Positions 26,383 to 57,277 of a DNA stretch of 64,000 nt are shown one piece after another; within the stretch, counting starts at the first letter, position 1, and each line of letters begins with the position of its first letter. A program made the position numbers and the translations under genes. The DNA is taken from assembly GCF_018390735.1 (NCBI RefSeq), contig NZ_JAHBCL010000008.1:62001-126000 (forward strand), given 5' to 3'. Origin of the DNA: Fusibacter paucivorans. Lineage in GTDB: Bacteria > Bacillota > Clostridia > Peptostreptococcales > Acidaminobacteraceae. The notes below the pieces were generated by a model. It ran no database searches. It was not told the DNA's origin and worked only from the letters and a program-made list of their open reading frames with translations.

Positions 26383-26552
26383 AGAAAAACAAGTATATGC
26401 AAAATTTAAATGAAAAACGTTATCATTTACTTGGATATCTGATGACTATATACCCCTTTTCATGTATAGCAAACAGACATGTGTCAGAATGTTCATTGCA
26501 TCTCAAAAGCGCTTACAGTAAAATGAGAGAAGGTAAGTCTACGAAAGGATAT

Positions 26553-27269
26553 ATGGAAATGATGAATGATATTGTATTGATTTCTCCGTTTGACGGGTTA
26601 AATGCAATGGCGAAAAAGTTAATCGAAACTGTACCCTATCAAGACGTTGAAGTCGTTGGCGGCGATTTGATGCAAGGTGTTCACGAGGCGCGAAAAGCTG
26701 TGTCACGAGGCGCGGAAGTGATTATTTCAAGGGGTGGCACATACTCAAAAATTCTTGAAATTGTGAATATTCCCGTTGTCGAAATAAAACTTACGGCTTT
26801 TGATGTATTTAACAGCTTTAAAGAAATAAGACATATTTCAGCCCCTATAGCCATCGTCGGTTATGAAAATGTCATTCAGGGATATGATATTATTGAAGAC
26901 TTACTGACGGTGCAAAATATTGTTAAGCTAACCCTTGATGACACCGAATCGGTTGATTCGCAGATTAAAAAGCTAATGGCGCAAGGGATTGAAGTCTTTG
27001 TTGGTGATACAATTGTCAATTCGGTTGCTAAGAAGTATGGCTGTAAAAGCTATATGATCGAATCGGGCGAAACGGCTATTGCCAATGCCATTGACGAAGC
27101 GATACGCATTTTAAATGCTATAAAATCCGATCGAGAGCGCATGAAGCGCTATATGGCTGTTATTGATAATACCAGTATTGTAATAAACCTCACAAGTGAA
27201 ATAACCGCGGCCCACTCCCTAAGGCTGCGGTTGTTTCTTTTTTGTCAGTGTATTTATTTCGCTTCTTGA
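26553..27269 (+). CDS. Orphan PrpR_N-type sensor domain, truncated sigma-54 regulator
   Basis: A 238-residue protein. Residues 1-190 match the PrpR_N sensor domain (GGDLMQGVHEARKAVSRGAEVIISRGGTYSKIL-type pattern) seen complete in the gene at 36161. The linker ERMKRYMAVIDN is where a PAS domain should start, but the frame runs on through a terminator hairpin and stops; PAS, AAA+ and DNA-binding parts are absent. A double stop TAATAA lies one frame away at about 27179, just before the hairpin. ATG 26553 has AAAGGA ahead. It may be a decayed activator or a ligand-binding partner for the activator at 28991. Confidence 0.7.
   Translation: MEMMNDIVLISPFDGLNAMAKKLIETVPYQDVEVVGGDLMQGVHEARKAVSRGAEVIISRGGTYSKILEIVNIPVVEIKLTAFDVFNSFKEIRHISAPIAIVGYENVIQGYDIIEDLLTVQNIVKLTLDDTESVDSQIKKLMAQGIEVFVGDTIVNSVAKKYGCKSYMIESGETAIANAIDEAIRILNAIKSDRERMKRYMAVIDNTSIVINLTSEITAAHSLRLRLFLFCQCIYFAS
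27203..27243. terminator. Terminator between convergent genes, inside the PrpR_N frame
   Basis: AACCGCGGCC pairs with GGCTGCGGTT (one G-T wobble), followed by a T-rich tail. It lies before the stop codon of the plus-strand frame. Confidence 0.75.
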
Positions 27270-28990: not shown

Positions 28991-30436
28991 ATGATGTACA
29001 GTGTGCGGCCACTGATAGAAAAGTATATCAATATTGAACCGGAAGCATACCTCGATATCGTTATTGAGCATTCTTATGATGGCATTTTTATTACCGATGG
29101 TGATGCCAATACGTTGACGATCAACGAAGCTTATGAGCGTATCACTGGTCTTTCCAGAAGTGAGATGCTAAATAGGAATATGCGCGATCTCGTTGCAGAA
29201 GGGTATATTTCTGAATCGGGGTCACTCAAAGCTATTGAAGCAAAACAAACCATATCGCTGAGCCAAACTTTTCGTACTGGCAAGAAGGCGCTGATTACCA
29301 GTAAGCCCGTTATGAATGAAACGGGTGATGTTATCGTCGTCATAACAAATGTCAGGGATATTACCGAATTGACAGAGGTCAAAGATCGCCTAGAAATGCA
29401 GGAACGATTGGCAGAAAAGTATTTGGCAGAAGCTGATGCACTTAAAAAGCAGCTGCTGGATACCTCTGATCTGATCGTCGAAGACAAAAAGATGATTGAT
29501 GTGCTCTATACGGCGCAAAAAGTGGCCATGACGGATTTTACGGTGATGATTACCGGCGAAAGCGGTGTTGGCAAGGAAGTGTTGGCAAAGTTTCTGCATA
29601 ACAACAGCCATCGAAGTGACGGTAATTTTATTAAAGTCAATTGTGGCGCCATTCCAGAAAACCTCATTGAATCAGAACTCTTCGGCTATGAAGGCGGCGC
29701 TTTTACAGGTGCCAGCACTGGCGGCAAACCAGGTCTTTTTGAAATTGCACACGGCGGGACGATTTTTTTGGATGAAATTGGCGAACTGCCTTATAATATG
29801 CAGGTTAAACTGCTAAGAGTGCTCCAAGAAGGCGAATTCACGAGAGTCGGCGGTGTTCTCCCTAAAAAGACGGATATACGCGTTGTGGCTGCAACGCATC
29901 GCAATCTTGAACAAATGGTGCAGTCGCATGTATTTCGAGAGGATTTGTATTATCGCCTCAATGTTATTCCGATTCTCGTACCGCCGCTTAGGGAACGACC
30001 AGAGGATATTCTGGCGCTGATCCGCTATTTTCTTGAAGCGATCAATACGAAGTATCACTGGCAGAAACGGTTTGGACGTGATGCATTGGATGCGATGCAT
30101 GACTATTACTGGCCGGGGAATATTAGAGAATTAAAGAATGTCGTGGAACGCGTCGTTGCCATGAGTCGGGATGATGTGATTGCCTGTGATGATTTGCCCA
30201 ATAAAATTGTCACGGCTAATCGCGAAAATGTCATGCGTTATTTAACCGATATCGTACCATTGGAAGAAGCCGTCATCGGCGTTGAAGAAGCATTGCTGTC
30301 GAAGGCGTTTGAAAAGTACGGCAATGTGAGAGGTGCTGCAAAAGCGCTGGGGATTGATGCGTCAACATTTGTTCGCAAACGTCAGCGCATTCAAAAATAT
30401 CGGGCGACATCCGAAGGGGAGAAGGCCAGTCGTTAA
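28991..30436 (+). CDS. Sigma-54-dependent activator with PAS domain, next to abfD
   Basis: A 481-residue enhancer-binding protein. PAS at about 20-130 (IVIEHSYDGIFITDGDANTL, NVRDITELTEVKDRL), coiled linker to 165, AAA+ to about 400 with Walker A GESGVGKE, GAFTGA and Walker B IFLDEIGE, and a Fis-type helix-turn-helix in GNVRGAAKALGIDASTFVRKRQRI. The start at 28991 has GCGAGG upstream. A perfect sigma-54 promoter and a dyad stand between it and abfD, so control of 4-hydroxybutyryl-CoA dehydration is likely. The PAS ligand is unknown. Confidence 0.92.
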   Translation: MMYSVRPLIEKYINIEPEAYLDIVIEHSYDGIFITDGDANTLTINEAYERITGLSRSEMLNRNMRDLVAEGYISESGSLKAIEAKQTISLSQTFRTGKKALITSKPVMNETGDVIVVITNVRDITELTEVKDRLEMQERLAEKYLAEADALKKQLLDTSDLIVEDKKMIDVLYTAQKVAMTDFTVMITGESGVGKEVLAKFLHNNSHRSDGNFIKVNCGAIPENLIESELFGYEGGAFTGASTGGKPGLFEIAHGGTIFLDEIGELPYNMQVKLLRVLQEGEFTRVGGVLPKKTDIRVVAATHRNLEQMVQSHVFREDLYYRLNVIPILVPPLRERPEDILALIRYFLEAINTKYHWQKRFGRDALDAMHDYYWPGNIRELKNVVERVVAMSRDDVIACDDLPNKIVTANRENVMRYLTDIVPLEEAVIGVEEALLSKAFEKYGNVRGAAKALGIDASTFVRKRQRIQKYRATSEGEKASR

Positions 30437-30540
30437 GATGACTAACAAACGCTTGGTGCAATAATGCACCGATGTTTCGTGTTTGCAACAATACTTGAGT
30501 TGACTTGTTTTAAAGGAAAAAGTTCATATGGATAAATTGA

Positions 30541-30580
30541 AAATCAAATTTTGTTGCATAAGTGCAATCGAATTTGATTT
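30541..30580. promoter_or_regulatory. 40-base dyad: enhancer for abfD or terminator of the activator gene
   Basis: AAATCAAATT pairs with AATTTGATTT as outer arms, and TTGCA-TAAG-TGCAA forms the centre; 16 of 20 positions are symmetric. The centre is 85 bases upstream of the -24 element, ideal for an enhancer. A T-rich tail follows, so a terminator role is also possible. Confidence 0.55.
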
Positions 30581-30644
30581 TTTATATTTTTGAAGAAACG
30601 CTTAAAAGGAACTTATTTGAAGGGCTAATAGTGTTTGATAGTTT

Positions 30645-30660
30645 TGGCACGTGAATTGCA
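30645..30660 (+). promoter_or_regulatory. Sigma-54 promoter of abfD
   Basis: TTGGCAC-GTGAA-TTGCA is a full match to the -24/-12 consensus with five-base gap, about 63 bases ahead of ATG 30723. Confidence 0.88.
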
Positions 30661-30722
30661 TTAAAATTAAGCAGACAGAAGAAAGATTCAAATGTTTTCA
30701 GGATAAGTATAAGGAGGCCGTT

Positions 30723-32177
30723 ATGGCAATTAAAACAAAGGAAGATTACATTGAAAGCTTAAGAAAGCTCAACACGAAGGTTTATATGTTTGGCGAGCTG
30801 GTTGAGAATCCAGTTGACCATCCGATTATCAGACCGTCGATCAACTCGGTGGCTATGACTTATGAGCTGGCAAATAACCCGGAATACGAGGATTTAATGA
30901 CCGTAACGTCGCACTTGACGGGTGAAAAAATCAATCGTTTTTGCCATATTCACCAGAGTACCGAAGACCTTGTTAAAAAAGTGAAGATGCAGCGCCTCTT
31001 AGGACAGAAGACCGGTGCTTGTTTTCAAAGATGTGTTGGCATGGATGCGTTTAATGCCATCTACAGTACAACTTTTGAAGTCGATGAAAAATATGGTACA
31101 AAGTATCATGAACAGTTTAAAGCCTATATGAAAATGGTACAGGAGAACGATTGGACGGTTGATGGTGCGATGACAGATCCTAAAGGTGATCGGAGTTTAT
31201 CGCCGAGCAAACAGGAAGATCCCGATTTGTTTATGCATGTTGTGGAGAGACGTCCTGATGGGATCGTCGTACGCGGTGCAAAAGCACATCAGACTGGATG
31301 CATCAACTCGCATGAGCATTTGATTATGCCGACGATTGCCATGGGGCCGGAAGACAAAGACTATGCGATTTCTTTTGCCGTTCCGACTGATACGGAAGGC
31401 GTTTTCATGATTTACGGCAGACAGTCATGCGATACGCGAAAACTCGAAGAAAATGCTTCACTGGATCTCGGGAACAGTGAGTTTGGGGGTCAGGAAGCAC
31501 TCGTGGTATTCAACGATGTATTTGTACCAAATGATCGTATATTCTTAAATGGTGAGACCGATTTTGCTGGAATGCTGGTTGAAAGGTTTGCCGGTTATCA
31601 CAGACAGAGTTACGGCGGCTGCAAGGTCGGGGTGGGCGATGTGCTCATTGGCGCGGCAGCTGTTGCGGCAGAATTTAATGGCGTACCAAAAGCTTCACAT
31701 ATTAAAGATAAACTTATTGAAATGATCCATCTAAATGAAACCCTTTACTGCAGCGGCATTGCCTGTTCATCAGAGGGGTATCCAACGGCATCGGGGAATT
31801 ACCAGATTGACTTGCTGCTGGCAAATGTCTGTAAACAGAATGTTACGCGTTTTCCATATGAGATTACACGCCTTGCGGAAGATATTGCCGGGGGGCTTAT
31901 GGTGACCATGCCATCTGAAAAAGATTTCAATGCGCCGGAGATCGGAGACATCTGTAAAAAATACTTTAAAGGCGTTGCCAGTGTTCCGACGATGGACCGT
32001 ATGAAAATACTGAGACTGGTTGAAAATTTAACACTTGGTACAGCAGCGGTGGGATATCGTACAGAATCGCTCCACGGTGCGGGATCACCTCAAGCACAGC
32101 GTGTGATGATTTGGCGACAAGGCAATATCGAGCATAAAAAAGCATTGGCTAAAAAAATTGCGAAAGTTGAATCGTAA
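30723..32177 (+). CDS. abfD: 4-hydroxybutyryl-CoA dehydratase / vinylacetyl-CoA isomerase
   Basis: A 484-residue FAD and [4Fe-4S] enzyme that dehydrates 4-hydroxybutyryl-CoA to crotonyl-CoA by a ketyl radical mechanism. The cluster ligands C100, C104, H293 and C300 align with C99, C103, H292 and C299 of the characterised clostridial enzyme (one residue offset). Long family stretches are recognisable (KVKMQRLLGQKTGACFQRC, GAKAHQTGCINSHEHLIMPT, SYGGCKVGVGDV). ATG 30723 has AAGGAGG upstream. The enzyme is oxygen-sensitive, which supports an anaerobic host. It is a single gene under sigma-54 control. Confidence 0.95.
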   Translation: MAIKTKEDYIESLRKLNTKVYMFGELVENPVDHPIIRPSINSVAMTYELANNPEYEDLMTVTSHLTGEKINRFCHIHQSTEDLVKKVKMQRLLGQKTGACFQRCVGMDAFNAIYSTTFEVDEKYGTKYHEQFKAYMKMVQENDWTVDGAMTDPKGDRSLSPSKQEDPDLFMHVVERRPDGIVVRGAKAHQTGCINSHEHLIMPTIAMGPEDKDYAISFAVPTDTEGVFMIYGRQSCDTRKLEENASLDLGNSEFGGQEALVVFNDVFVPNDRIFLNGETDFAGMLVERFAGYHRQSYGGCKVGVGDVLIGAAAVAAEFNGVPKASHIKDKLIEMIHLNETLYCSGIACSSEGYPTASGNYQIDLLLANVCKQNVTRFPYEITRLAEDIAGGLMVTMPSEKDFNAPEIGDICKKYFKGVASVPTMDRMKILRLVENLTLGTAAVGYRTESLHGAGSPQAQRVMIWRQGNIEHKKALAKKIAKVES

Positions 32178-32255: not shown

Positions 32256-32285
32256 TTGACATAAGTATACAAATCATGGTATAAT
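32256..32285 (+). promoter_or_regulatory. Near-consensus sigma-70 promoter upstream of opuA
   Basis: TTGACA at 32256-32261 and TATAAT at 32280-32285, 18-base spacer. Transcription would start near 32292 and meet two terminators before opuA. Confidence 0.75.
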
Positions 32286-32291
32286 GTCCCA

Positions 32292-32579
32292 TACAATTAA
32301 ATGTTGAAGTAAGGAATATGAGTAGTTTTGTCGTCGAGCAGGGATATGTTCTCGTGAATAGATCAATGTGAGGCGACATTGAGCGTCAAGTGCCTTTAAC
32401 CACACAACAGGTGTATTATTGACGAAAGTATGACTGAAAAAACAAGGTTTTAGAACTGGGGTCTGCACAGGCTCAAATGGGAATGTGCTATACTATCATA
32501 TGGTGGTATAATGTGAGTCATTTACGGCGAAGCTTAGACACTCTAACTCTATTGAAAAATAGGGTTGGGGTGTCTTTTT
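32292..32579 (+). ncRNA. Candidate untranslated transcript or attenuator leader
   Basis: Bounded by the consensus promoter at 32256-32285 and the strong hairpin-plus-T terminator ending at 32579, a transcript of about 290 nt is predicted. No convincing protein frame lies inside. It could be a small RNA or a prematurely terminated leader of the glycine betaine transporter operon. No family is recognised. Confidence 0.4.
32536..32579 (+). terminator. 18-bp hairpin with GAAA loop and T run
   Basis: The arms 32536-32553 and 32558-32575 pair over 18 bp with three G-T wobbles and no mismatch, capped by GAAA, then TTTTT. The wobbles pair only in plus-strand RNA, so it acts on rightward transcripts. 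Confidence 0.88.
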
Positions 32580-32714
32580 ATTTAAATTAAAGACTTGAAT
32601 GTCAAGTGCCTTTACGGATGGTCCAACCGTGAAAATATGAATGAGAAAATCTTATTAAAAATTGACCTCAGTGTACGGTATATCTTAAAACGAAAAAAAC
32701 GCTAAGCTGACTGT

Positions 32715-36160: not shown

Positions 36161-38065
36161 ATGGCTAAAATTGGGGTTGTCTGGCATTATATCAAATATG
36201 AGGAATACTTTCGAATCATTGCAGAATCCATAGGAGAAACGATCTATTTCAAACTCGGCAATCTATATGATGGCATACGAGCGGCTAAAGCACTCATTGA
36301 AGAAGCAGACGTCGAGGTTATTATTGCTCGAGGCTACACGGGAGAATTGATAAGAGAATCTGTAGAAATCCCCGTTGTCGTTATGGAAAACTCTAACTTT
36401 GACTTGATCAATGCTGTTCACAAAGCGCATGAACTTGGGGAAAAGATTGCATTTGTGGATTATCAGCGTAATAAACAGTTTTATGATTTTGAACTGATTA
36501 AGCGATTGCTCGATATTGATTTTGACTATTTTACCTTTAATGAAATTCATGAAATCGAAGGTAAGACGCATGAGATTGCAAAAAAAGGATATGATGTCGT
36601 CATTGGTACGGGATCCTGTGTCTTTCGAAATGCCTTTAAATCTGGGATAGACAGTGTGTTGCTAGAAACAAGCCGTGAGGATTTTATTTCAGCGATTAAC
36701 CGCGCAAAGGCAACGGTGGAAATCAGACGCCGCGAGACAGAGAAAAATAAATGGATGAAGGCGATCTACGACAATGCTAAAGAAGGTTATATGCTGGTGA
36801 CAGGTGAAGGCAAAATAACGGTTTTCAATGAAATCATGTCTGAAATTTTTAATGTGGAAAGTGAATCGATTATTGGTAAAGAGATGTCTGAAGCGATGAA
36901 GGTTGCCACAGATATCCGTAAGGTTTATGCCAAGACGGCGATTAGTGGTGAACTCATCGATGTTAATCGAAACCGTGTCATTGTCAATCGATTTCCCATT
37001 GATGAAGAAGACCAGACGGATTGTGTATTGATCAATTTACAAAAAGCGTCGAATATTCATGACTTGGATGCAAAACTGCGTCATGATTATGTGAAAAAGG
37101 GGTTTGTATCCAAAACACACTTTGATGATATAATCACGAAAAATACAGAAATGCTGGAACTCATTCAAAAGGCAAAGCTCTATGCCAAATCAAAATCCAA
37201 TATCCTAATCTATGGCGAAAGCGGTACGGGGAAAGAATTGTTTGCCCAGAGTATTCATCGTGAAAGTACATGTGCTGCAGGACCTTTCGTTGCGATAAAC
37301 TGTGCCTCTCTACCTGAAAATCTTTTGGAGAGTGAGCTCTTTGGCTATGAAGAAGGGGCTTTTACCGGTGCCCGAAAAGGCGGCAAGCTCGGTATATTTG
37401 AACTGGCACACAAGGGCACGATTTTTTTAGATGAAATTGGCGAAATGAGTATTCAGCTACAGTCGCGGTTTTTACGCGTGCTGCAGGAGCGGGAAGTTAT
37501 CCGGTTAGGCGGTGATCGCGTCATTCCAGTTGATGTGCGCATTATTTGCGCGACGAATAAAAATCTCTTTAACCTCGTCGTCGATGGCAAGTTTAGAGAG
37601 GATCTCTATTATCGCATTAACATTTTAAAATTGAGCGTGCCGCCGCTTCGGCAACGAAAAGATGATATCTGGTGTATTTTTAAGTATTTTTTAAATCACA
37701 AAGGCTATGTCAACACAGATGAGCTTGCTTTTTTGGAGCCGTTGATGATTCGCTATGACTGGCCGGGAAACGTGCGAGAGCTTCAGGCTTTTGGGGAAAG
37801 ACTGATGGCGATGCGCGATTCGCTCGATGCAGTAACGGCAAAGGCACTTTTCAGCGAATGCGTTCACGACGGTGATTCTGATGACAGGCGCTATAAGCGA
37901 CTTGACGATAAAGTGATACAAATCAATCTTGCGTCGATGAATGAAATGGAAAATCAGATCATACAGCTTCTTTATGAGCACCTTGGTGGCGATAAAGACG
38001 AAATGGCAAACATCCTCAATATTTCAAAGACGACACTTTGGCGTAAACTTAAAGAAATTAACTAA
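36161..38065 (+). CDS. Sigma-54-dependent activator, PrpR_N-PAS-AAA+-Fis
   Basis: A 634-residue enhancer-binding protein of the PrpR type. PrpR_N sensor at about 1-190, PAS at about 200-300 (KAIYDNAKEGYMLVTGEGKI), AAA+ at about 325-550 with Walker A GESGTGKE, GAFTGA and Walker B IFLDEIGE, and C-terminal Fis-type helix-turn-helix GGDKDEMANILNISKTTLWRKL. GGGAGG precedes the ATG. PrpR_N domains bind small carboxylates (2-methylcitrate in PrpR). A sigma-54 promoter and enhancer-like dyad follow directly, so the TRAP/CoA operon downstream is its target. Confidence 0.94.
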   Translation: MAKIGVVWHYIKYEEYFRIIAESIGETIYFKLGNLYDGIRAAKALIEEADVEVIIARGYTGELIRESVEIPVVVMENSNFDLINAVHKAHELGEKIAFVDYQRNKQFYDFELIKRLLDIDFDYFTFNEIHEIEGKTHEIAKKGYDVVIGTGSCVFRNAFKSGIDSVLLETSREDFISAINRAKATVEIRRRETEKNKWMKAIYDNAKEGYMLVTGEGKITVFNEIMSEIFNVESESIIGKEMSEAMKVATDIRKVYAKTAISGELIDVNRNRVIVNRFPIDEEDQTDCVLINLQKASNIHDLDAKLRHDYVKKGFVSKTHFDDIITKNTEMLELIQKAKLYAKSKSNILIYGESGTGKELFAQSIHRESTCAAGPFVAINCASLPENLLESELFGYEEGAFTGARKGGKLGIFELAHKGTIFLDEIGEMSIQLQSRFLRVLQEREVIRLGGDRVIPVDVRIICATNKNLFNLVVDGKFREDLYYRINILKLSVPPLRQRKDDIWCIFKYFLNHKGYVNTDELAFLEPLMIRYDWPGNVRELQAFGERLMAMRDSLDAVTAKALFSECVHDGDSDDRRYKRLDDKVIQINLASMNEMENQIIQLLYEHLGGDKDEMANILNISKTTLWRKLKEIN

Positions 38066-38109
38066 TCCAATTTCATCCAAGTGATTTCATTTTGAAATTC
38101 AAATTTAAA

Positions 38110-38131
38110 TTTGCAATAAAAATATTGCAAA
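38110..38131. promoter_or_regulatory. Candidate enhancer of the TRAP/CoA operon
   Basis: TTTGCAAT-N6-ATTGCAAA, a perfect inverted repeat with eight-base arms, centred about 75 bases upstream of the -24 element. Confidence 0.6.
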
Positions 38132-38194
38132 TTTTTTTTGCTAAGAGTTTAGTAAATTGAGGATTTTCAATGTCTTGAGAGATTTTAAAAAAGA

Positions 38195-38210
38195 TGGCAC
38201 GGGTTTTGCT
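38195..38210 (+). promoter_or_regulatory. Sigma-54 promoter of the TRAP/CoA operon
   Basis: TGGCAC-GGGTT-TTGCT matches the consensus with five-base gap. It lies 36 bases ahead of the dctP-like start codon, consistent with a short leader. Confidence 0.88.
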
Positions 38211-38245
38211 TTATATATAAGCAACGAAATTAAAGGAGGTTCTAA

Positions 38246-39364
38246 ATGAACAAGAGGGTTAATGGTTATAAGCGTTTTTGGGGACTAGTACTGATAATTT
38301 GCATGATCGTATCCTTGACGGCATGCAGCGGAAGCAAAACACAGACGAATGCACAGACTGACACGGGCAGTGAGACGAACAGTGAGACGATGACATCAAC
38401 TGAAACAGCGCCGGAAACGATCAAGCTGAAAGTGGCAGATATTTATCCAGGAACGCATTATGTGCCGGCCAACAGTTTAATGGTATGGACAGAGCGCGTG
38501 ACGGAACTGACGAATAATCAAGTTCAGTTCGATATTTATCCTTCACAGCAAATGGGCAGCAGTGCTGATATGCTGGATATCATGAGCAAGGGCATCGCAG
38601 ATATTGGCTATGTACCATTTCCGTACTTTAGCAGCAGAATGCCGTTGATCACAGGCGCAGGCGCTATTTCGGGTACATGGGCAAACTGTAGTACAGGCAA
38701 TCCCGCTGTATGGTCAGTAGCGACAGCATCGCCGGTTCTTGAAAATGATTTTCTAAGCAATGACATCAGGCCGATCCTGCCTTTTGCCAATCAGACCTTT
38801 CAGCTATTAACGAATAAAGTGCTCGTTACTTCATTGGATGAAATTAAAGGATTAAAAATAAGGAGCAGCGGTGGCGTCATGGATAAGATTATCACGTCGC
38901 TCGGCGCCATCCCCGTTCAAATTCCGGTGACAGAACTCTATGAAGCCATGGCGCGTGGAACAGTTGACGGCACACTGATTTCATGTATCGCAGCGGATTC
39001 AAATAAGATCAACGAAGCGTCGAAATACGTGACGACAGGTGTTAATGTTTCCGGCGGTGTCTTTGGCTATGTCATCAATGAAGACGTTTGGCAGTCATTG
39101 CCGCAAAATGTTCGGGATGCTATGAATCAGGCGAGTACAGAGGCATTGACGCAACTTGGCGAAACAATGGATAAATTAGAGTTGGAAGCGTTGGAGGCCT
39201 TTAAAAGCGGAGGGCTCGAAGTTCATGAATTATCGCAGGATGAACAGAAAAAATGGATACTGGCTCAGGCAAATGTTGAAGCGGACTGGATCAGTGATAT
39301 GGATGGCAAAGGACTACCCGGTGCGCAAGTACTGCAAAGTCTAAGAGATCATATTGAGCCTTAA
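38246..39364 (+). CDS. dctP: TRAP transporter substrate-binding lipoprotein DctP
   Basis: A 372-residue solute receptor. Signal peptide with lipobox LTAC (C27), Thr/Ser/Glu-rich tether to about 60, then the DctP fold. The motif GLKIRSSGGVMDKIITSLGAIPVQIPVTELYEAM contains the conserved arginine (in KIRSS, near residue 209) that binds the ligand carboxylate. AAAGGAGG precedes the ATG. First gene of a seven-gene operon. The ligand is a carboxylate of unknown identity. Confidence 0.92.
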   Translation: MNKRVNGYKRFWGLVLIICMIVSLTACSGSKTQTNAQTDTGSETNSETMTSTETAPETIKLKVADIYPGTHYVPANSLMVWTERVTELTNNQVQFDIYPSQQMGSSADMLDIMSKGIADIGYVPFPYFSSRMPLITGAGAISGTWANCSTGNPAVWSVATASPVLENDFLSNDIRPILPFANQTFQLLTNKVLVTSLDEIKGLKIRSSGGVMDKIITSLGAIPVQIPVTELYEAMARGTVDGTLISCIAADSNKINEASKYVTTGVNVSGGVFGYVINEDVWQSLPQNVRDAMNQASTEALTQLGETMDKLELEALEAFKSGGLEVHELSQDEQKKWILAQANVEADWISDMDGKGLPGAQVLQSLRDHIEP

Positions 39365-39374
39365 GGAGTGTGTC

Positions 39375-39866
39375 ATGAAAAGAATTTTCGAAAAATTGGA
39401 TGACATTATTATTAAGATCAGCAGTGCCATTCTTTTCATTATGATGATTTGGGTATTTTCTGATGCAGTTGGGCGGTATGTCTTTAATCACCCGCTACCG
39501 GGAACACTGGAAATAACAGAAGAGTATTTGATGGTTTGTATTGTTTTTTTATCTATCAGTTATGCACAAAAGCACAAGGCGCATGTACGTGTTGATTTGT
39601 TTATCCACTATATTCCCGAGCACATCTTAAAAGTGACAGATGTAATCATGCAGCTCTTCATGCTCTTTTATGCCGTGCTGCTGACAAGGCAAGCTTTTGC
39701 GCAGGCGCTATGGTGTATTGAAGTCAACAGCACGTCGAGAGGATCGTTGGGGTATCCGTTGGCACCGGCCTATTTCTTGATGGGGTTGGGACTGTTGATG
39801 ACATCGGTGAGAATACTCTTTGAGCTCGTTGAAGGTGCAAGGGTCATCAAAGGAGGGCAATCGTGA
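39375..39866 (+). CDS. dctQ: TRAP transporter small membrane subunit DctQ
   Basis: A 163-residue four-TM protein (segments about 15-35, 48-65, 85-108, 126-148) of the DctQ family; GRYVFNHPLPGTLEITEEYLM is the family pattern. ATG 39375 has AAGGAG upstream and lies ten bases after the dctP stop. Its 3' end overlaps the dctM-like start by four bases. Confidence 0.9.
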   Translation: MKRIFEKLDDIIIKISSAILFIMMIWVFSDAVGRYVFNHPLPGTLEITEEYLMVCIVFLSISYAQKHKAHVRVDLFIHYIPEHILKVTDVIMQLFMLFYAVLLTRQAFAQALWCIEVNSTSRGSLGYPLAPAYFLMGLGLLMTSVRILFELVEGARVIKGGQS

Positions 39867-41143
39867 TCATCGGATTGATTTTATTACTCATATTTTTATT
39901 TCTTGGCATGCCGATCGGATTTTGTCTGGGGGCAGCAGGCATCATCGGACTAACATATGTCCAAGGGTTTGATTTAGCTGTCAATATATTGATGACGACA
40001 CCATTTAGAAGTGTTGCAAGTTATACCCTTGTGACGATACCGCTATTTGTTCTAATGGCTGAATTTCTCGATGTAACGGGATTGGCGAAGAAGTCTTATA
40101 TTGCCGCGTATAAATGGATTGGTCATCTTCGAGGCGGTCTAGGAATTGCTACCATTATCGGCGGTGCCGCATTTGGTGCATGTTCGGGGTCGAGTTCGGC
40201 ATCAACAGCAACATTTGGTGCCATCGCCATTCCGGAAATGAAAAAATGCAATTACAGTGATGAACTAAGCGCTGGAACGGTTGCCATTGCCGGTACGCTT
40301 GCGGCGATTATTCCGCCGAGCATATTGCTGGTCGTCTATGGATCACAAGCCAATGTTTCAATCGGTAAAGTTTTAATCGCAGGGATTATACCAGGGGCTA
40401 TGATGGCTTTACTCTATGCTTTTGGGGTTTGGCTCATTGTCAAGATTTGGCCGAAACATGCCCCGCCGGTTGAACCCTATAGCTGGTCTGAGCGCTTTAA
40501 AGCACTGTGGGATATTTGGCCAATGGTGATTATAGCGCTTATGATTTTAATTTTTCTCTATTCCGGCATTACCACACCGACGGAGACTGCCGCTTTTGGT
40601 GCGATTGTGACACTGTTGTTAGGCATATTGACAAAGTCAATTACATTACCAGAGGTGATTCAATCATTAAAAAATACGTTGAAGACGACGGCGATGATGT
40701 TTACCATCATCATTGGCGCTCAGATTTTCACATACTATTTGACGCTGACGGGGTTGACGCAAGCTGCGATTACAGCGATCAGCGGACTTGATGTTTCAAA
40801 TGCGGTTATTATGCTGCTCATCGTCATCGTCTACTTGTTCTTAGGCATGTTCCTGCCATCTATGGGAACGATGCTGCTGACATTGCCATTGGTACTGCCG
40901 CTTATGATTGAGATGGGTTATGATCCTATCTGGTTTGGTGTTGTCTTGGTAATGTTGCTCGAGGTTGGTCTTATTACACCGCCCGTCGGATTAAATTGTT
41001 TTATCGCCAGCGGCACTAGTGGGATTCCATTATCAAAAGTTTTTAAAGGAGCGATGCCGCTTTTGGCTATGGCGATGTTTGGTATTTTTCTGATGATCAT
41101 GTTTCCTCAAATTGTACTGTGGTTACCGACAATGATGAAATAA
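39863..41143 (+). CDS. dctM: TRAP transporter large membrane subunit DctM
   Basis: A 426-residue sodium-driven permease with about 12 TM segments. Conserved stretches include GAAFGACSGSSSASTATFGAIAIPEM and IPPSILLVVYG, both typical of DctM. The start is GTG at 39863, overlapping the dctQ stop (GTGA), with AGGAGGG upstream. It works with DctP and DctQ to import organic acids. Confidence 0.92.
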   Translation: MIIGLILLLIFLFLGMPIGFCLGAAGIIGLTYVQGFDLAVNILMTTPFRSVASYTLVTIPLFVLMAEFLDVTGLAKKSYIAAYKWIGHLRGGLGIATIIGGAAFGACSGSSSASTATFGAIAIPEMKKCNYSDELSAGTVAIAGTLAAIIPPSILLVVYGSQANVSIGKVLIAGIIPGAMMALLYAFGVWLIVKIWPKHAPPVEPYSWSERFKALWDIWPMVIIALMILIFLYSGITTPTETAAFGAIVTLLLGILTKSITLPEVIQSLKNTLKTTAMMFTIIIGAQIFTYYLTLTGLTQAAITAISGLDVSNAVIMLLIVIVYLFLGMFLPSMGTMLLTLPLVLPLMIEMGYDPIWFGVVLVMLLEVGLITPPVGLNCFIASGTSGIPLSKVFKGAMPLLAMAMFGIFLMIMFPQIVLWLPTMMK

Positions 41144-41163
41144 AATTAAAGGAGAAACAACAT

Positions 41164-41637
41164 ATGATAAAAAAATTAGATCACATGACTTTTGCGGTGC
41201 ATGATCGCGCAACAGTAGGTGCGCGGATTGAAAAAGTTTACGGCGGCAATTTTCTGATGACTGTTAAGAGTGAACCGAAGCAGTACGTCTGTGACATGTA
41301 TATGATTGAAGGTGACATCATACTGGGGCTCTTGGAGCCGACCTCACCAGATAGCTTTGTTGCTAAACATCTTGAGAAATTCGGCGAAAGCCTACAGCAT
41401 ATTGGTGTCGATGTGGACAATTTGGACAATGCCATTCAGATATTCGATGAGAATGCCATTAAGTATGGCCTTTACGAAGAAGTTGAAAACATACGTCGTG
41501 AAGTGATCGTTTCGCCAAAATATACATTTGGTACTGTTATGCAGGTGATGGAGTGGTTTGATGACTATAAGACAAAGTCATCAGAAGAACGTATGCGCAT
41601 TGTATGGAATGAAATTGAAGGAGCTGACAATGAGTAA
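41164..41637 (+). CDS. VOC-family protein, methylmalonyl-CoA epimerase-like
   Basis: A 157-residue vicinal-oxygen-chelate protein. Metal ligands are probably H7 in KLDHMTFAV, the histidine in SLQHIGVDV near residue 79, and E in QVMEWF near residue 131, the spacing of methylmalonyl-CoA epimerase or glyoxalase. AAAGGAG stands ahead of ATG 41164. It sits between transporter and CoA-activating genes, which suggests epimerisation or isomerisation of an acyl-CoA. The substrate is not established. Confidence 0.8.
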   Translation: MIKKLDHMTFAVHDRATVGARIEKVYGGNFLMTVKSEPKQYVCDMYMIEGDIILGLLEPTSPDSFVAKHLEKFGESLQHIGVDVDNLDNAIQIFDENAIKYGLYEEVENIRREVIVSPKYTFGTVMQVMEWFDDYKTKSSEERMRIVWNEIEGADNE

Positions 41638-43741
41638 TCAGCAATTGATGAAACATTTGATGGCGCCTGACAGCATTGCCGTTTTAGGTGCCTCTAATCG
41701 CCCTGAAAGTATTGGCGGCAGACCAATTAAGTTTTTAAAGGATTATGGTTTCAAGGGCGCAGTTTATCCAATCAATCCAAAATATGAAACCATACAAGGG
41801 CTGCCGTGTTACAAGGACATCAGCAGCATTCCCCAAAAAGCTGATTTATTGATCATCATCACGAAGCCCAATAGCATCCTGCAGGCAATGCGTGATGCAA
41901 AAGCTCGGAAAATTCCAGCCGTTATGATTATAACGTCAGGGTTTTCCGAGTCGGGTGATGATGGCAAAAAGCTTGAAGAGGCACTCGTTACGTATGCCAG
42001 AGATAATGAGATGCTCGTCATGGGCCCCAATTGTCAGGGATTTGTCAATTTTGACAAGAAAGTGACGGCAACTTTTACGGGTGCTTTGAGTCGCGGGAAT
42101 CTGCAGCAGGGCAACATTTGTCTTATATCTCAGAGCGGCGCCATGAGCGGCATGCTCTATGCTATGGCCGTGGATCTCGGCATTGGTTTTTCTTATCTGA
42201 TCAGCGGCGGCAACGAATCTATTGTTACCACATCGCATTTTATTGACTATGCGGTGGATGATGATCGAACAGATGCTATTTGCGTTTACATGGAAGGGAT
42301 TAAAGATGCGCCGCTATTGAAAGCTGCGGCTAGAAAAGCAGTTGAACAAGACAAACCCATTGTTGCGATGAAAGTGGGAAAATCGGAAGCTGGCAGCAAG
42401 GCGGCGTCTTCTCACACCGGTGCATTAGCATCCTCTGATGCCATCGTGGACAGCTTTATGAAACAATCTGGCATTTTGCGTGTTGAAACGACAGATGATC
42501 TCTTTGACGCGATGAAAGTGTTCTCAAATGGCAAACGATCTGATGGTAATCGCATAGGTGTCGTGTCAATCTCCGGAGGTGCTGGCGTCGTCATGGCAGA
42601 TGCCTGTGAAAAATATCAGATGACACTGCCAAAACTCTCGGGAGAGACCGAAAAAGAACTCAGTGCAAATATCCCCGCATTTGGTTCACCGCATAATCCA
42701 GTCGATTTAACGGCACAGGTTTTAACAGCTTATGAGAAATTCTATCATTGTATTGAAACGGTTGCAGCAGATGAAAGCGTAGATGCAGTGGTCATATTCA
42801 TCGGTTTACTGGAGCATTTGAAAGATAATCTCTTAAAGGCGATTGAAGATCTGAATGCTGTAACGCAGAAACCAATTTTGGTAACTTGGCTTGCGGCGAC
42901 GCCTGAAATAAAATCATGGTTCTATGAAAAGAAAATACCGCTCTTTGAAGATTCGGATCGCTGCATATTTGGCGCTTCGCTGCTTTGGCGCTATACAGCA
43001 CTAAAGCGGGAAGTCATGTTGCCAATAGAAAGAACCGGTGATGATTTGACTGCGTCAGTGCATGAAATGTACAAAGGCATAAATGGATTTTTAAATGAAT
43101 GGGACTCAAAACAGATGATTGCTGCAGCAGGCGTGATGACTGATTCGCCAATCGTTGCAGCGGATGCAGCCGCACTGGCATCAATTGCGGAAAAGTTAAA
43201 TTACCCAGTTGCCGTAAAAGTATTATCGCAGTCAATTTTGCACAAGTCAGATATTGGCGGTGTCGTACTAAATGTTGGCGATAAAACGGCATTATTAAAT
43301 GCTTATACCTCTATTCTCGACAATGTTGAGGCAAATGGTTTGGCTTCAGCTTTTGAGGGGGTTATTGTCTCACCAATGCGGCCAAAAGGAACGGAGATGA
43401 TCGTTGGTATTAAAAAGGATCCGCATCTTGGGACAGCTGTTGTATTGGGGATGGGCGGCACGATGGTAGAGATCTTGAAGGATTCGGTTATGCAGCTTAT
43501 TCCCATCGATAAACGTAATGCAGTCAAAATGATTGATTCCCTTAAAAGTAGAAAAATGCTGTATGGCTATCGGGACATTGCGCGAAAGGATATTGATGCA
43601 TTAGCGGCGATTATTGTCCGCGTCAGCGACTTATGTATGGCACGTCCGGATATTCAAGAAATGGACATCAACCCGATCTTTGTCTACGATGAAGGACAGG
43701 GGGCGGTCGCCCTTGATGCTTTGATTAAACTGGAGGTTTAA
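41630..43741 (+). CDS. NDP-forming acyl-CoA synthetase, fused alpha and beta domains
   Basis: A 703-residue acetate-CoA ligase (ADP-forming) family enzyme, which links acyl-CoA formation or cleavage to ATP. The CoA-binding domain (about 10-135) starts SIAVLGASNRPESIGGRP, the ligase domains follow (SGAMSGMLYAMA, SHTGALASSDAIVDSF), and the ATP-grasp domain occupies about 480-700 (YPVAVKVLSQSILHKSDIGGV). GGAG precedes ATG 41630, which overlaps the VOC gene by eight bases. Substrate range in this family is wide. Confidence 0.9.
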   Translation: MSNQQLMKHLMAPDSIAVLGASNRPESIGGRPIKFLKDYGFKGAVYPINPKYETIQGLPCYKDISSIPQKADLLIIITKPNSILQAMRDAKARKIPAVMIITSGFSESGDDGKKLEEALVTYARDNEMLVMGPNCQGFVNFDKKVTATFTGALSRGNLQQGNICLISQSGAMSGMLYAMAVDLGIGFSYLISGGNESIVTTSHFIDYAVDDDRTDAICVYMEGIKDAPLLKAAARKAVEQDKPIVAMKVGKSEAGSKAASSHTGALASSDAIVDSFMKQSGILRVETTDDLFDAMKVFSNGKRSDGNRIGVVSISGGAGVVMADACEKYQMTLPKLSGETEKELSANIPAFGSPHNPVDLTAQVLTAYEKFYHCIETVAADESVDAVVIFIGLLEHLKDNLLKAIEDLNAVTQKPILVTWLAATPEIKSWFYEKKIPLFEDSDRCIFGASLLWRYTALKREVMLPIERTGDDLTASVHEMYKGINGFLNEWDSKQMIAAAGVMTDSPIVAADAAALASIAEKLNYPVAVKVLSQSILHKSDIGGVVLNVGDKTALLNAYTSILDNVEANGLASAFEGVIVSPMRPKGTEMIVGIKKDPHLGTAVVLGMGGTMVEILKDSVMQLIPIDKRNAVKMIDSLKSRKMLYGYRDIARKDIDALAAIIVRVSDLCMARPDIQEMDINPIFVYDEGQGAVALDALIKLEV

Positions 43742-43742
43742 A

Positions 43743-44513
43743 ATGCGTGATTCAAAATTGTTAATGGATGCTCTGGCTAGATTTATAAAGCCTTTGACCA
43801 TGCCGGTGGCAGTGATGCGACCGACTGATAAAACGGCAATCACTGACAAATTCATTCAGCCCAGCGTGAAGTTTGAACGGAAACTCGCGCTTTGTCAAGG
43901 GGTTGCAGCAGCACGGCGATATGGCTGGACACTGCTGTTTGAAGAAGCTGATCACGGATGCCCGGCATCATATGCTTATTTGGGTTTTAAAGAATCAGCT
44001 TATTTTAAAGAAGGTGGCATTGTCTATCCTGGTTATGCCAACGATATGGCCATTGCAAAAAAAATTGAACAGGGCAATAGTTTCTTTGAGGTGCCGCCAA
44101 CCTATTTATTGATGGGAGCACTTGAAAAGGTCGATTTTGAACCGGAACTTGTGCTTGTCTATGGGAACTCCGCACAGATTGCGCGCATTGCACAGGGCAT
44201 TAATTATTATTATGGCGACGGTGTCAAGAGTACGACTTTTGGACGTGCAGCTTGTGCCTCTTACATTGTGAAAGCGCTTAAGTGCAATGAGCCGCTCATT
44301 GTCATTCCAAGCGGCGGCGAGCGTATTTTCGCCAGCACACAGGATGATGAACTCATTGTTGCGATTCCTAGAGCCTACTTTTTAGATACGGCTAAAGGGA
44401 TTGAGCGTGTTCATAAAGAAGGGCTTTCCAGATTCCCGACGATCTTCCATGGCGTGCTGAGCACACCGGACTTCCCGGCGAAATATTGGGAGGTTATCAA
44501 TGACGGCAGATAA
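43743..44513 (+). CDS. DUF169-family protein
   Basis: A 256-residue protein of the DUF169 family, whose function is uncharacterised. Seen are KLALCQGVAAARRYGWTLL, FEEADHGCPASYAYLGF with a conserved cysteine, and VPSGGERIFA-like GGERIFASTQDDE. Metal or haem binding has been suggested for the family, but no ligand set is certain here. It begins directly after the synthetase (stop TAA, then ATG) and overlaps the CoA-transferase by 14 bases, so expression is tightly coupled and a role in acyl-CoA metabolism is likely. Confidence 0.78.
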   Translation: MRDSKLLMDALARFIKPLTMPVAVMRPTDKTAITDKFIQPSVKFERKLALCQGVAAARRYGWTLLFEEADHGCPASYAYLGFKESAYFKEGGIVYPGYANDMAIAKKIEQGNSFFEVPPTYLLMGALEKVDFEPELVLVYGNSAQIARIAQGINYYYGDGVKSTTFGRAACASYIVKALKCNEPLIVIPSGGERIFASTQDDELIVAIPRAYFLDTAKGIERVHKEGLSRFPTIFHGVLSTPDFPAKYWEVINDGR

Positions 44514-45822
44514 GGCAATTTTAAAACAGTATGGTACAAAACATGTTTCGGCAGATGAGGCGGTGGCCTGTGTCAAATCTGGTGACTGGATTGAATTTGG
44601 TTTTTTTGCCAATCTGCCGCTGACGCTGGATGTGGCATTGGCAAAGCGGATACGAGATCAGAGGCTGTTCGACATTAAACTTCGCGGCGGCGTGTTGATG
44701 CAAAGGCTTCAATCATTGGAAAGTGACAATGCAATATGGTATTCCTATCATTTTGGCGGTCTCGAGAGAGCATTGGCAAAAGAGGGTAAAGCCTATCACA
44801 TTCCGATAAAGTATTCTGAAGTGCCAGTTTACTTGAGAGAGAATCTGACGACAAATGTGGTGATGATACAGACAACACCAATGGATGAAGAAGGCTATTT
44901 TAACTTTGGTGTCACTTTTTCACACTTTAAGGCGGCCATTGAAAAGGCAGATACTGTCATTGTTGAAATCAATACCAACCTTCCCAAAGTACACGGCGGC
45001 TTTGATCACGCTGTTCACATTGATGATGTCCACTACATTGTCGAAGGTGGGAATAATCCGATCTTTGAATTGCCAAGTGCTTCACCAAGTGAAACTGATT
45101 TAAAGATTGCAAGTTATGTCATGCCGGAAATCAATGATGGCGCGTGCTTACAACTCGGCATTGGTGGGCTTCCCAATGCGCTTGGCAAGCTCATTGCAAA
45201 GTCGGAACTAAAGGACCTAAGCGTTCACAGCGAAATGTTGGCAGATGCATTTGTCGACTTGGTCGAAGCGGGAAAGATCACAGGCAAGTACAAGGAACTG
45301 GATAACGGCAAAATTGTGTTCACTTTTGCGGCAGGCTCACAGAAACTATATGATTTTATGCATGATAATCCTATGCTGGCGGCATATCCTGTTGACTATG
45401 TCAACAATGTGCTCGTCACATCAAAGATCAATCACTTTATCTCGATCAACGGGGCTTTGGAAATTGATTTGACAGGGCAAGTATGCTCTGAATCCATGGG
45501 GTATAAACAGTTTACCGGTGCCGGTGGTCAGCTCGATTTTGTTGAAGGTGCCTACCTTTCAGAGGGAGGAAAAACATTTATTTGCTTGCCGGCGACCTTT
45601 AAAAATAAATCGGGTGTGCTTCATTCGAGAATTAATCCGATGCTGACACCCGGCGCTGTTGTGACAACCCCCAGAAACGCCGTTCAGTATGTGGTAACAG
45701 AGTATGGATGTATTAATCTTAAGGGATTGTCGACAAGAGAACGTGCAGAAAAATTAGCCAGTATTGCACACCCGGATTTTCGAGACGGTTTAAAAAAGGC
45801 TGCAGAGAAGATGGGATTATAG
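44500..45822 (+). CDS. AbfT-like CoA-transferase (acetyl-CoA hydrolase/transferase family)
   Basis: A 440-residue class I CoA-transferase that moves CoA from acetyl-CoA or similar to a carboxylate. GIGGLPNALG at about 220-229 and catalytic E245 in SVHSEMLADAF are visible; the C-terminus YGCINLKGLSTRERAEKL is typical of 4-hydroxybutyrate CoA-transferase and butyryl-CoA:acetate transferase. TTGGGAGG overlaps the previous gene. Given abfD 12 kb away, 4-hydroxybutyrate is a fair candidate substrate, but the operon context allows others. Confidence 0.88.
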   Translation: MTADKAILKQYGTKHVSADEAVACVKSGDWIEFGFFANLPLTLDVALAKRIRDQRLFDIKLRGGVLMQRLQSLESDNAIWYSYHFGGLERALAKEGKAYHIPIKYSEVPVYLRENLTTNVVMIQTTPMDEEGYFNFGVTFSHFKAAIEKADTVIVEINTNLPKVHGGFDHAVHIDDVHYIVEGGNNPIFELPSASPSETDLKIASYVMPEINDGACLQLGIGGLPNALGKLIAKSELKDLSVHSEMLADAFVDLVEAGKITGKYKELDNGKIVFTFAAGSQKLYDFMHDNPMLAAYPVDYVNNVLVTSKINHFISINGALEIDLTGQVCSESMGYKQFTGAGGQLDFVEGAYLSEGGKTFICLPATFKNKSGVLHSRINPMLTPGAVVTTPRNAVQYVVTEYGCINLKGLSTRERAEKLASIAHPDFRDGLKKAAEKMGL

Positions 45823-55642: not shown

Positions 55643-56827
55643 CTATTTGGCAGCATAATCGTAGTGGTAACATGTTCTATAGAGCTCAATGATTTCCGCA
55701 TGCGTTGGAACGACAGGATTATAATTAGGGCTGCCGCTTGCCAACGCATCAGTTGCCATTTTATCAAGTACTTCATTAAATTTTGCTTCATCAATGCCCC
55801 AGCCTTTTAAATTTGGAATATTGAGATCGTGACAAAGTCCCTTGATAACGGCAATGGCATGATCGGCCCAATCGCTGTCACTGTTGCAGGCAGCATCAGG
55901 ATCAATTAATCTGCCAATAACGGCTAATTGCGGCGTTGCGGCCTCTTTGCTGAACGACAGACAGGCGGGCAGCAGCATGGCATTTGATATGCCGTGCGGG
56001 ACGTGAAACAATGCGCCAATGGGTCTGGACATCCCATGAATTAACGTTACTGAAGCGTTGGAAAAGGCTACACCCGCCTGCATTGCTGCGAGAGACATTT
56101 TTTCGCGGGCATCAACATCGTCGCCATGCTCATAGACGCGTTTAATGTTTTTAGTAATGAGCTCAATCGCTGAAAGTGCGAAAGAATCGGTCATAGGGTG
56201 GGCACTTTTTGAAAAATAAGCTTCAATGGCGTGGCACAGTGCATCAAGGCCGGTTGCCGAGGTAACATTTTTAGGTGTTGTCAATGTAAGGAACGGGTCA
56301 ACAATTGACATTCGCGGTAAAAAAGCACTTTGCTTAATCATCATTTTGACATCTTTTTCAAGGTTTGTGATGACAGCGACATTGGTTACCTCTGAACCGG
56401 TGCCGGCAGTGGTTGGTATGGCAATCACGGGCAGCGGTACGGTTTCTGCAATGCGTTTGCCGCCCATGAACTCGCCAATATACCCCTTGTTGGTGGCGAC
56501 GACGGAAACGGCTTTTGCGGTGTCGATACAGCTGCCGCCGCCAATGGCGACAATGATATCGCAAGATTCAGCTTCACAAATGCGAAGGGCATCCTGTACA
56601 AAGGCATCAGAAGGCTCGCTGTTGGCATCTAAATAGTAGGCACATGAAATGCCTTTCGCGTTCAGCAAGACGGTACATTTTTCCACATAGCCTACTTTTT
56701 CCATAATTCGATCACTGACAATCAGCGCTTTTTGCCCCAATGAAGCAGCCAATTCACCCAGTTGACTCAGAGAATCACGGCCATAAAGCAGTTTTTGCGG
56801 CATTTCAAAGTTTGAAAAAGATTGCAT
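55643..56827 (-). CDS. Iron-containing alcohol dehydrogenase
   Basis: A 394-residue group III alcohol dehydrogenase. [10 protein letters not shown] at about 96-105 binds NAD(P), and the metal ligands are D195, H199, H264 and H278. ATG 56827 is preferred since GGGGGA abuts the other ATG at 56833. With the CoA-acylating dehydrogenase it can turn an alcohol or hydroxyacid into an acyl-CoA via the aldehyde. 4-Hydroxybutyrate and 3-hydroxypropionate dehydrogenases belong to this family. Sigma-54 control is likely. Confidence 0.9.
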
Positions 56828-56999
56828 CTTCATTCCCCCTTAGATTATTTACATCAAATGTGTAACCGTTGTAGGATTGCAGCACTAGAGACAGTAAACA
56901 CAGTATAAATCTCTTTGCGTAAACCGTTCAACGGTCATTGAGCACGTCGACGAAACGACGTATTGAATGTTCTCAGGTGCGCCACCTGCTTTATAACAT

Positions 57000-57016
57000 T
57001 GCAAAGATGATGCCAA
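57000..57016 (-). promoter_or_regulatory. Sigma-54 promoter of the dehydrogenase operon
   Basis: Minus strand TTGGCAT-CATCT-TTGCA matches the -24/-12 pattern with five-base gap (one change, C to T). The leader would be about 160 nt. Confidence 0.72.
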
Positions 57017-57054
57017 ATAGAAAGTTTATACGAAAAAAAGCAGTTAATAGCTAT

Positions 57055-57137
57055 CACGTCGTTGGAAAGACTGGTTCGACGTGCAGCGCAAAGATATAGG
57101 AGAAGAAGTGTTGTAATGCAATGCATAAGGGCATTGC
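57055..57137. promoter_or_regulatory. Candidate enhancer dyads of the dehydrogenase operon
   Basis: CACGTCG-N15-CGACGTG at 57055-57083 and GCAATGC-N6-GCATTGC at 57118-57137. The second is about 110 bases upstream of the -24 element, a typical enhancer distance. Confidence 0.5.
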
Positions 57138-57244
57138 TTCGAAATGTTCAAAAAATCATACATATCTTAACGGATACTGTTTTTATTTTCGAACAGTTTC
57201 AAAAATGTAACAGTGAACACATCGTTTTTTGGTTTTTACTGGAA

Positions 57245-57277
57245 AAAAAGAAGGTGCTTTGAAAACGCACCTTCTTT
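57245..57277 (-). terminator. Terminator of the CBS-PAS activator gene
   Basis: AAAGAAGGTGC pairs with GCACCTTCTTT, followed by T on the minus strand. It separates the activator from the dehydrogenase promoter. Confidence 0.85.

Follow-up and report, generated by a model that had tools for sequence, protein, structure and literature searches.

Predicted sigma-54 control of the 4-hydroxybutyryl-CoA dehydratase gene of Fusibacter paucivorans by a neighboring activator, with an enhancer site in a putative terminator hairpin

We propose that abfD of Fusibacter paucivorans, the gene for 4-hydroxybutyryl-CoA dehydratase, is driven by the sigma-54 activator encoded next to it through an array of three upstream activating sites (UAS), the third of which may double as a terminator of the activator transcript; we would put the probability of this reading, which is predicted from sequence, at about 85%. 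The genome spans 4.43 Mb in 96 contigs, and the analysis centered on a 64-kb window, the whole stretch of DNA around abfD, to which all positions below refer. RNA polymerase with sigma-54 (RpoN) would transcribe abfD from a -24/-12 element at 30644-30660, and dimers of the upstream activator would bind palindromic TTGCA-N4-TGCAA sites situated, relative to the predicted start, at about -208 (UAS1), -189 (UAS2, 19 bp away) and -110 (UAS3). The bound activator would then oligomerize, loop to the promoter and melt it by means of its AAA+ domain, once its PAS domain has sensed a signal inside the cell, the likeliest being a 4-hydroxybutyrate-related metabolite or redox state. As UAS3 falls within the probable terminator hairpin of the activator mRNA, the activator transcript would be ended, and abfD enhanced, by one and the same element.

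The dehydratase gene and its sigma-54 promoter

AbfD is a radical-type dehydratase that feeds crotonyl-CoA and butyrate formation in clostridia. The window encodes a 484-aa protein (30723..32177, plus strand; also a vinylacetyl-CoA isomerase) with the HpaB_N and HpaB domains of Pfam, whose top PDB match is 1u8v, the Clostridium aminobutyricum AbfD (E = 1.5e-249). It keeps all four residues that we take to be the iron-sulfur ligands (C99, C103, H292 and C299 in C. aminobutyricum numbering) and, among the positions checked, all five further residues that are presumably part of the active site (T190, E257, Y296, K300 and E455). The earlier note's assignment of this gene to 4-hydroxybutyryl-CoA dehydratase is thereby borne out, and by these residues the product is a true AbfD with predicted catalysis. 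The gene is present in a single copy in the whole genome. Its likely start is the ATG at 30723, preceded by AAGGAGG at 30711-30717; the GTG at 30651, the mechanical start of the open reading frame, was rejected as it falls within the -24/-12 promoter.

This promoter, TTGGCACGTGAATTGCA (30644-30660, plus strand), scores 31/32 against YTGGCACGRNNNTTGCW with GG-N10-GC spacing, is one of the two top-scoring -24/-12 sites of the window and fits a YTGGCACG-N4-TTGCW context 79 nt ahead of the abfD ATG, in agreement with the element that had been claimed at this place. Such sites are rare, the strict pattern TGGCACN5TTGCW occurring 15 times in the 4.43 Mb versus once for a reversed control pattern. 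Among about 100 abfD loci drawn from GTDB genomes and relatives, many other clostridia display a similar site, mostly 53-135 nt upstream of abfD, and the loci from Bacteroidales and C. difficile showed none within 250 nt of the gene. The element is kept between the window, the congener L172 and the family members L174 and L175 amid a diverged spacer. The genome has one rpoN gene (a single Sigma54_DBD match, E = 6.4e-63). These observations support 30644-30660 as the sigma-54 promoter of abfD, with its RpoN dependence as a prediction. The earlier note had also suggested aligning the upstream regions of abfD in related Clostridia; this comparison shows the GG/GC element co-occurring with the enhancer motif and an orthologous activator.

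The enhancer array and the putative terminator hairpin

A 40-base dyad had been described ahead of the promoter; it is present at 30540-30581 and its core is UAS3 (TTGCATAAGTGCAA, 30554..30567), an exact TTGCA-N4-TGCAA and the third of three such sites. The two weaker copies had been overlooked: UAS1 (GTGCAATAATGCAC, 30456..30469) and UAS2 (TTTCGTGTTTGCAA, 30475..30488), 19 bp apart and each with two mismatches in the window (none of the three sites being assigned a strand). UAS1 occupies the same array position in relatives and is kept in L172, L174 and L175; UAS2, the weakest of the three, is unrecognizable at two mismatches in L172. The window conforms to the common array of relatives, in which two sites 18-19 bp apart are followed by a third about 55-110 bp beyond. 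In the 450 nt before abfD of 28 activator-linked loci, there are 57 copies at one mismatch or fewer versus 1.7 in shuffles, and 13 exact copies versus 0.17. Presence of the motif tracks both an adjacent activator (26/28 loci with one versus 12/76 without, p 3e-13) and a sigma-54 site (34/46 versus 4/58, p 5e-13), these p values ignoring shared ancestry. Hence, on statistically strong grounds, the array constitutes the candidate binding sites of the activator. The strength of the dyad by itself was rejected as evidence: a 40-base pattern made from its arms and center matches the window once and 100 shuffles not at all but is derived from the dyad itself, and when the intergenic region is shuffled 2000 times, a generic dyad of equal strength appears in 16 cases, so the real evidence is the conservation. 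A second target in the same genome was also sought, and only one of its nine exact TTGCAN4TGCAA places, that of abfD, lies near a strict -24/-12 site, degenerate sites escaping such a search.

The dyad around UAS3 (30540..30581, plus strand) folds into a hairpin of -17.2 kcal/mol (z -4.75) with T-rich sequence on its 3' side and probably terminates the activator mRNA. How strong a terminator it makes is uncertain, given its AT-rich stem, and a stricter terminator scan does not list it. A terminator-like hairpin occurs in 20 of the 28 regions, the best one holding the core of a site in 16; as random placement already predicts 9.5 of the 20, the claim of overlap is carried by the permutation and covariation tests. 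In the former, the ten-base flanks of 27 third sites, picked by position with hairpin-less ones (about half of the loci) included, pair in 59% of positions as against 42% with flanks swapped among loci (0/5000), whereas those of UAS1 and UAS2 self-pair at chance level. In the latter, 88% of cells pair across 16 loci, selected partly for visible hairpins, versus 40-52% when slid, with 53 double changes versus at most 17. In L052, L062, L071 and L076, the first and second sites pair with each other instead.

The terminator-like hairpin that often encloses the third site has covarying arms, so enhancer and activator terminator seem to be one element, and the simplest reading is that a terminator of the activator transcript shares its stem with UAS3. 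We offer more tentatively, as somewhat less probable than its converse, that the two evolve as one, the UAS forming the loop-proximal stem and the outer arms drifting by compensatory change, with termination and abfD activation physically coupled; this would include the genera in which two adjacent sites pair to form the hairpin. If so, the bound activator might affect the 3' end of its own transcript or insulate the abfD promoter from read-through, and the overlap would neatly exemplify how two transcription units can be served by one DNA element. The most probable of the alternatives, which we still consider improbable, is that the dyad is merely the intrinsic terminator of the activator, with the enhancers being UAS1 and UAS2 or lying elsewhere and the likeness of the core being incidental. 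The stable hairpin followed by T-rich sequence and arms that covary and differ between lineages are what it would predict; yet the core is conserved far beyond the need of a terminator stem and repeats the motif of the tandem UAS1 and UAS2, whose flanks form no hairpins.

The activator and the alternatives to local control

The PAS-type sigma-54 activator that had been noted just upstream is a 481-aa enhancer-binding protein (28991..30436, plus strand) ending 286 nt before the abfD ATG. It combines PAS, Sigma54_activat (E = 1.4e-70) and AAA_lid_14 domains with a C-terminal HTH_50 domain, which is significant by E-value (3.6e-5) and slightly below the Pfam cut-off. A quick tree places the majority of the abfD-linked activators, this one among them, on a 34-row branch that contains no own-genome paralogs (SH-aLRT 81), and this activator forms a 100% group with its three closest relatives. 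Based on this grouping of abfD-linked activators, it is probably an ortholog of XanR.

The genome is very rich in such regulators: the abfD activator has 47 matches in it at E <= 1e-20, alongside one rpoN, and thus another activator could act on abfD in trans. Control by one of these rather than by the neighbor would also find a parallel in the Fusibacter-type relatives L176 and L177, which keep the sigma-54 site and carry a different activator beside abfD. Adjacency and the co-occurrence of the activator group with the motif across genera speak against it, and we rate it as slightly less probable still than a terminator-only dyad. In L176 and L177 themselves, the activator is divergently oriented and of another group and no TTGCA-N4-TGCAA array was found at abfD, an apparent swap of the activator at the same target. 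Transcription of abfD from a housekeeping promoter or by activator read-through, with the -24/-12 element as a chance match, is very improbable: the sigma-70-like matches of the region are weak and within shuffle noise (13 versus 8.9, sd 3.2), and against it stand the conserved position and sequence of the element, the UAS array, the adjacent activator and a putative terminator that would block read-through. Control of abfD by its neighbor, with sigma-54 and the UAS array, is thus the reading that we retain; a dedicated activator with a defined motif makes the inducer and regulon of abfD testable across many genera.

Other sigma-54 features of the window were observed. At 36161-45822, a PrpR_N-type activator (36161-38065) is followed by a -24/-12 site at 38194 (31/32) and genes for a TRAP-type transporter, an acyl-CoA synthetase-like protein and an acetyl-CoA hydrolase/transferase-family protein (44500-45822), a unit that probably serves organic acid uptake and activation. 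On the minus strand at 55643-59072, another activator adjoins an iron-containing alcohol dehydrogenase (55643-56833), with a -24/-12-like site, TTGGCATCATCTTTGCA, at 57016 between the two genes. A 290-aa protein at 26397-27269, adjoining an amidase gene, has only a PrpR_N sensor domain, lacking AAA+ and HTH domains, and is possibly the remnant of a sigma-54 activator.

Pathway genes and an RNA element around abfD

AbfT, 4HbD or SucD is encoded within 5 kb of abfD in 50 of the 61 loci with enough flank and in 14 of the 17 with an adjacent activator; 11 of these 17 have a NifU-like gene. In relatives, the activator-abfD pair mostly precedes nifU and abfT, and in L077 and L175 the orthologous activator is followed by abfD-nifU-(small gene)-abfT. 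No pathway-type AbfT, 4HbD or SucD homolog was found near abfD in the window or L172. The earlier picture of abfD standing alone with its own activator thus holds for the genus, as represented by these two loci; the pair, though, is not peculiar to this genome, being conserved in relatives and predicted earlier. The abfT gene of the genome (63% to AbfT) is on another contig, unlinked from abfD, and was rejected as a co-regulated gene, its locus (L171) having neither a sigma-54 site in position nor a UAS with at most one mismatch. The idea of a hidden but complete succinate pathway was likewise set aside, since the genome yielded no close 4HbD or SucD, the best matches being 35% over part of the protein and 39%, respectively, and a complete route from succinate to 4-hydroxybutyrate is not evident. 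The unlinked abfT devoid of UAS and these weak matches suggest that abfD is regulated apart from the remainder of the pathway, and the substrate of AbfD may come from uptake or from the action of other dehydrogenases.

Downstream of abfD and ahead of proV (32821) lies a structured RNA element (32439-32593, plus strand), which is preceded by a perfect sigma-70 promoter (32256-32285) and ends in an intrinsic terminator hairpin (32536-32575). Copies of its DNA turn up at unrelated positions in 14 of the 41 genomes of the family, and by a covariance model 39 of 247 genomes from the order and 28 of a 398-genome sample of the phylum (Bacillota) carry it in full length. In an alignment of 42 sequences that was fitted to, and so favors, this model, 94.8% of cells pair versus 36-48% when slid, with 266 double changes versus at most 40. 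The genes on its 3' side include those for BCCT betaine transporters, ProV/OpuC components, amino-acid binding proteins, and AblA and AblB (N-acetyl-beta-lysine). Rfam 15 returned no credible match, and two published motifs, proX from primarily Spiribacter and opuB from mostly Enterobacteriaceae, differ from it in taxa and are described as controlling translation. We regard it as a candidate for a new, seemingly undescribed class of osmolyte-related riboswitch which, if it is one, would outweigh the abfD finding in importance. A second, more divergent copy (80 bits) lies outside the window at G000:C96:82547-82688.

Comparison with known systems

Sigma-54 control of abfD is of a known kind, as it was predicted or listed in two surveys. 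In the available text of Nie et al. 2019 (PMC6615313), XanR control of abfD-nifU-hyp-ach-golB is predicted in Clostridium and most UAS of Clostridiales are placed 100-250 bp upstream of the promoter; in a 2025 survey (PMC12316311), COG2368, the group to which 4-hydroxybutyryl-CoA dehydratase belongs, is listed as being under sigma-54 regulation mainly in Clostridia. The system studied here resembles the XanR regulon in having a sigma-54 activator that controls abfD and, in L077 and L175, the abfD-nifU-(small gene)-abfT arrangement. It differs in that the organism is outside the genus Clostridium and no nifU or abfT follows abfD: the target operon order abfD-nifU-hyp-ach is absent from the window, which has abfD only, and is seen in L077 and L175. 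It differs also in the overlap of a UAS with a hairpin, of which the available text of Nie et al. makes no mention. The enzyme resembles that of C. aminobutyricum in its top structural match and its kept iron-sulfur ligands and active-site residues, but its gene is unlinked from abfT in a genome with no close 4HbD or SucD. Compared with promoters of the NtrC, NifA and FhlA type, the domain order of the activator, its adjacency and the UAS array upstream of a -24/-12 promoter are shared, whereas the UAS of the window are TTGCA-N4-TGCAA, theirs being commonly TGT-N10-12-ACA, and one of them sits in a terminator-like hairpin. XanR-type control of abfD is thus already predicted; what is added here is the defined motif, its array and the overlap with the hairpin.
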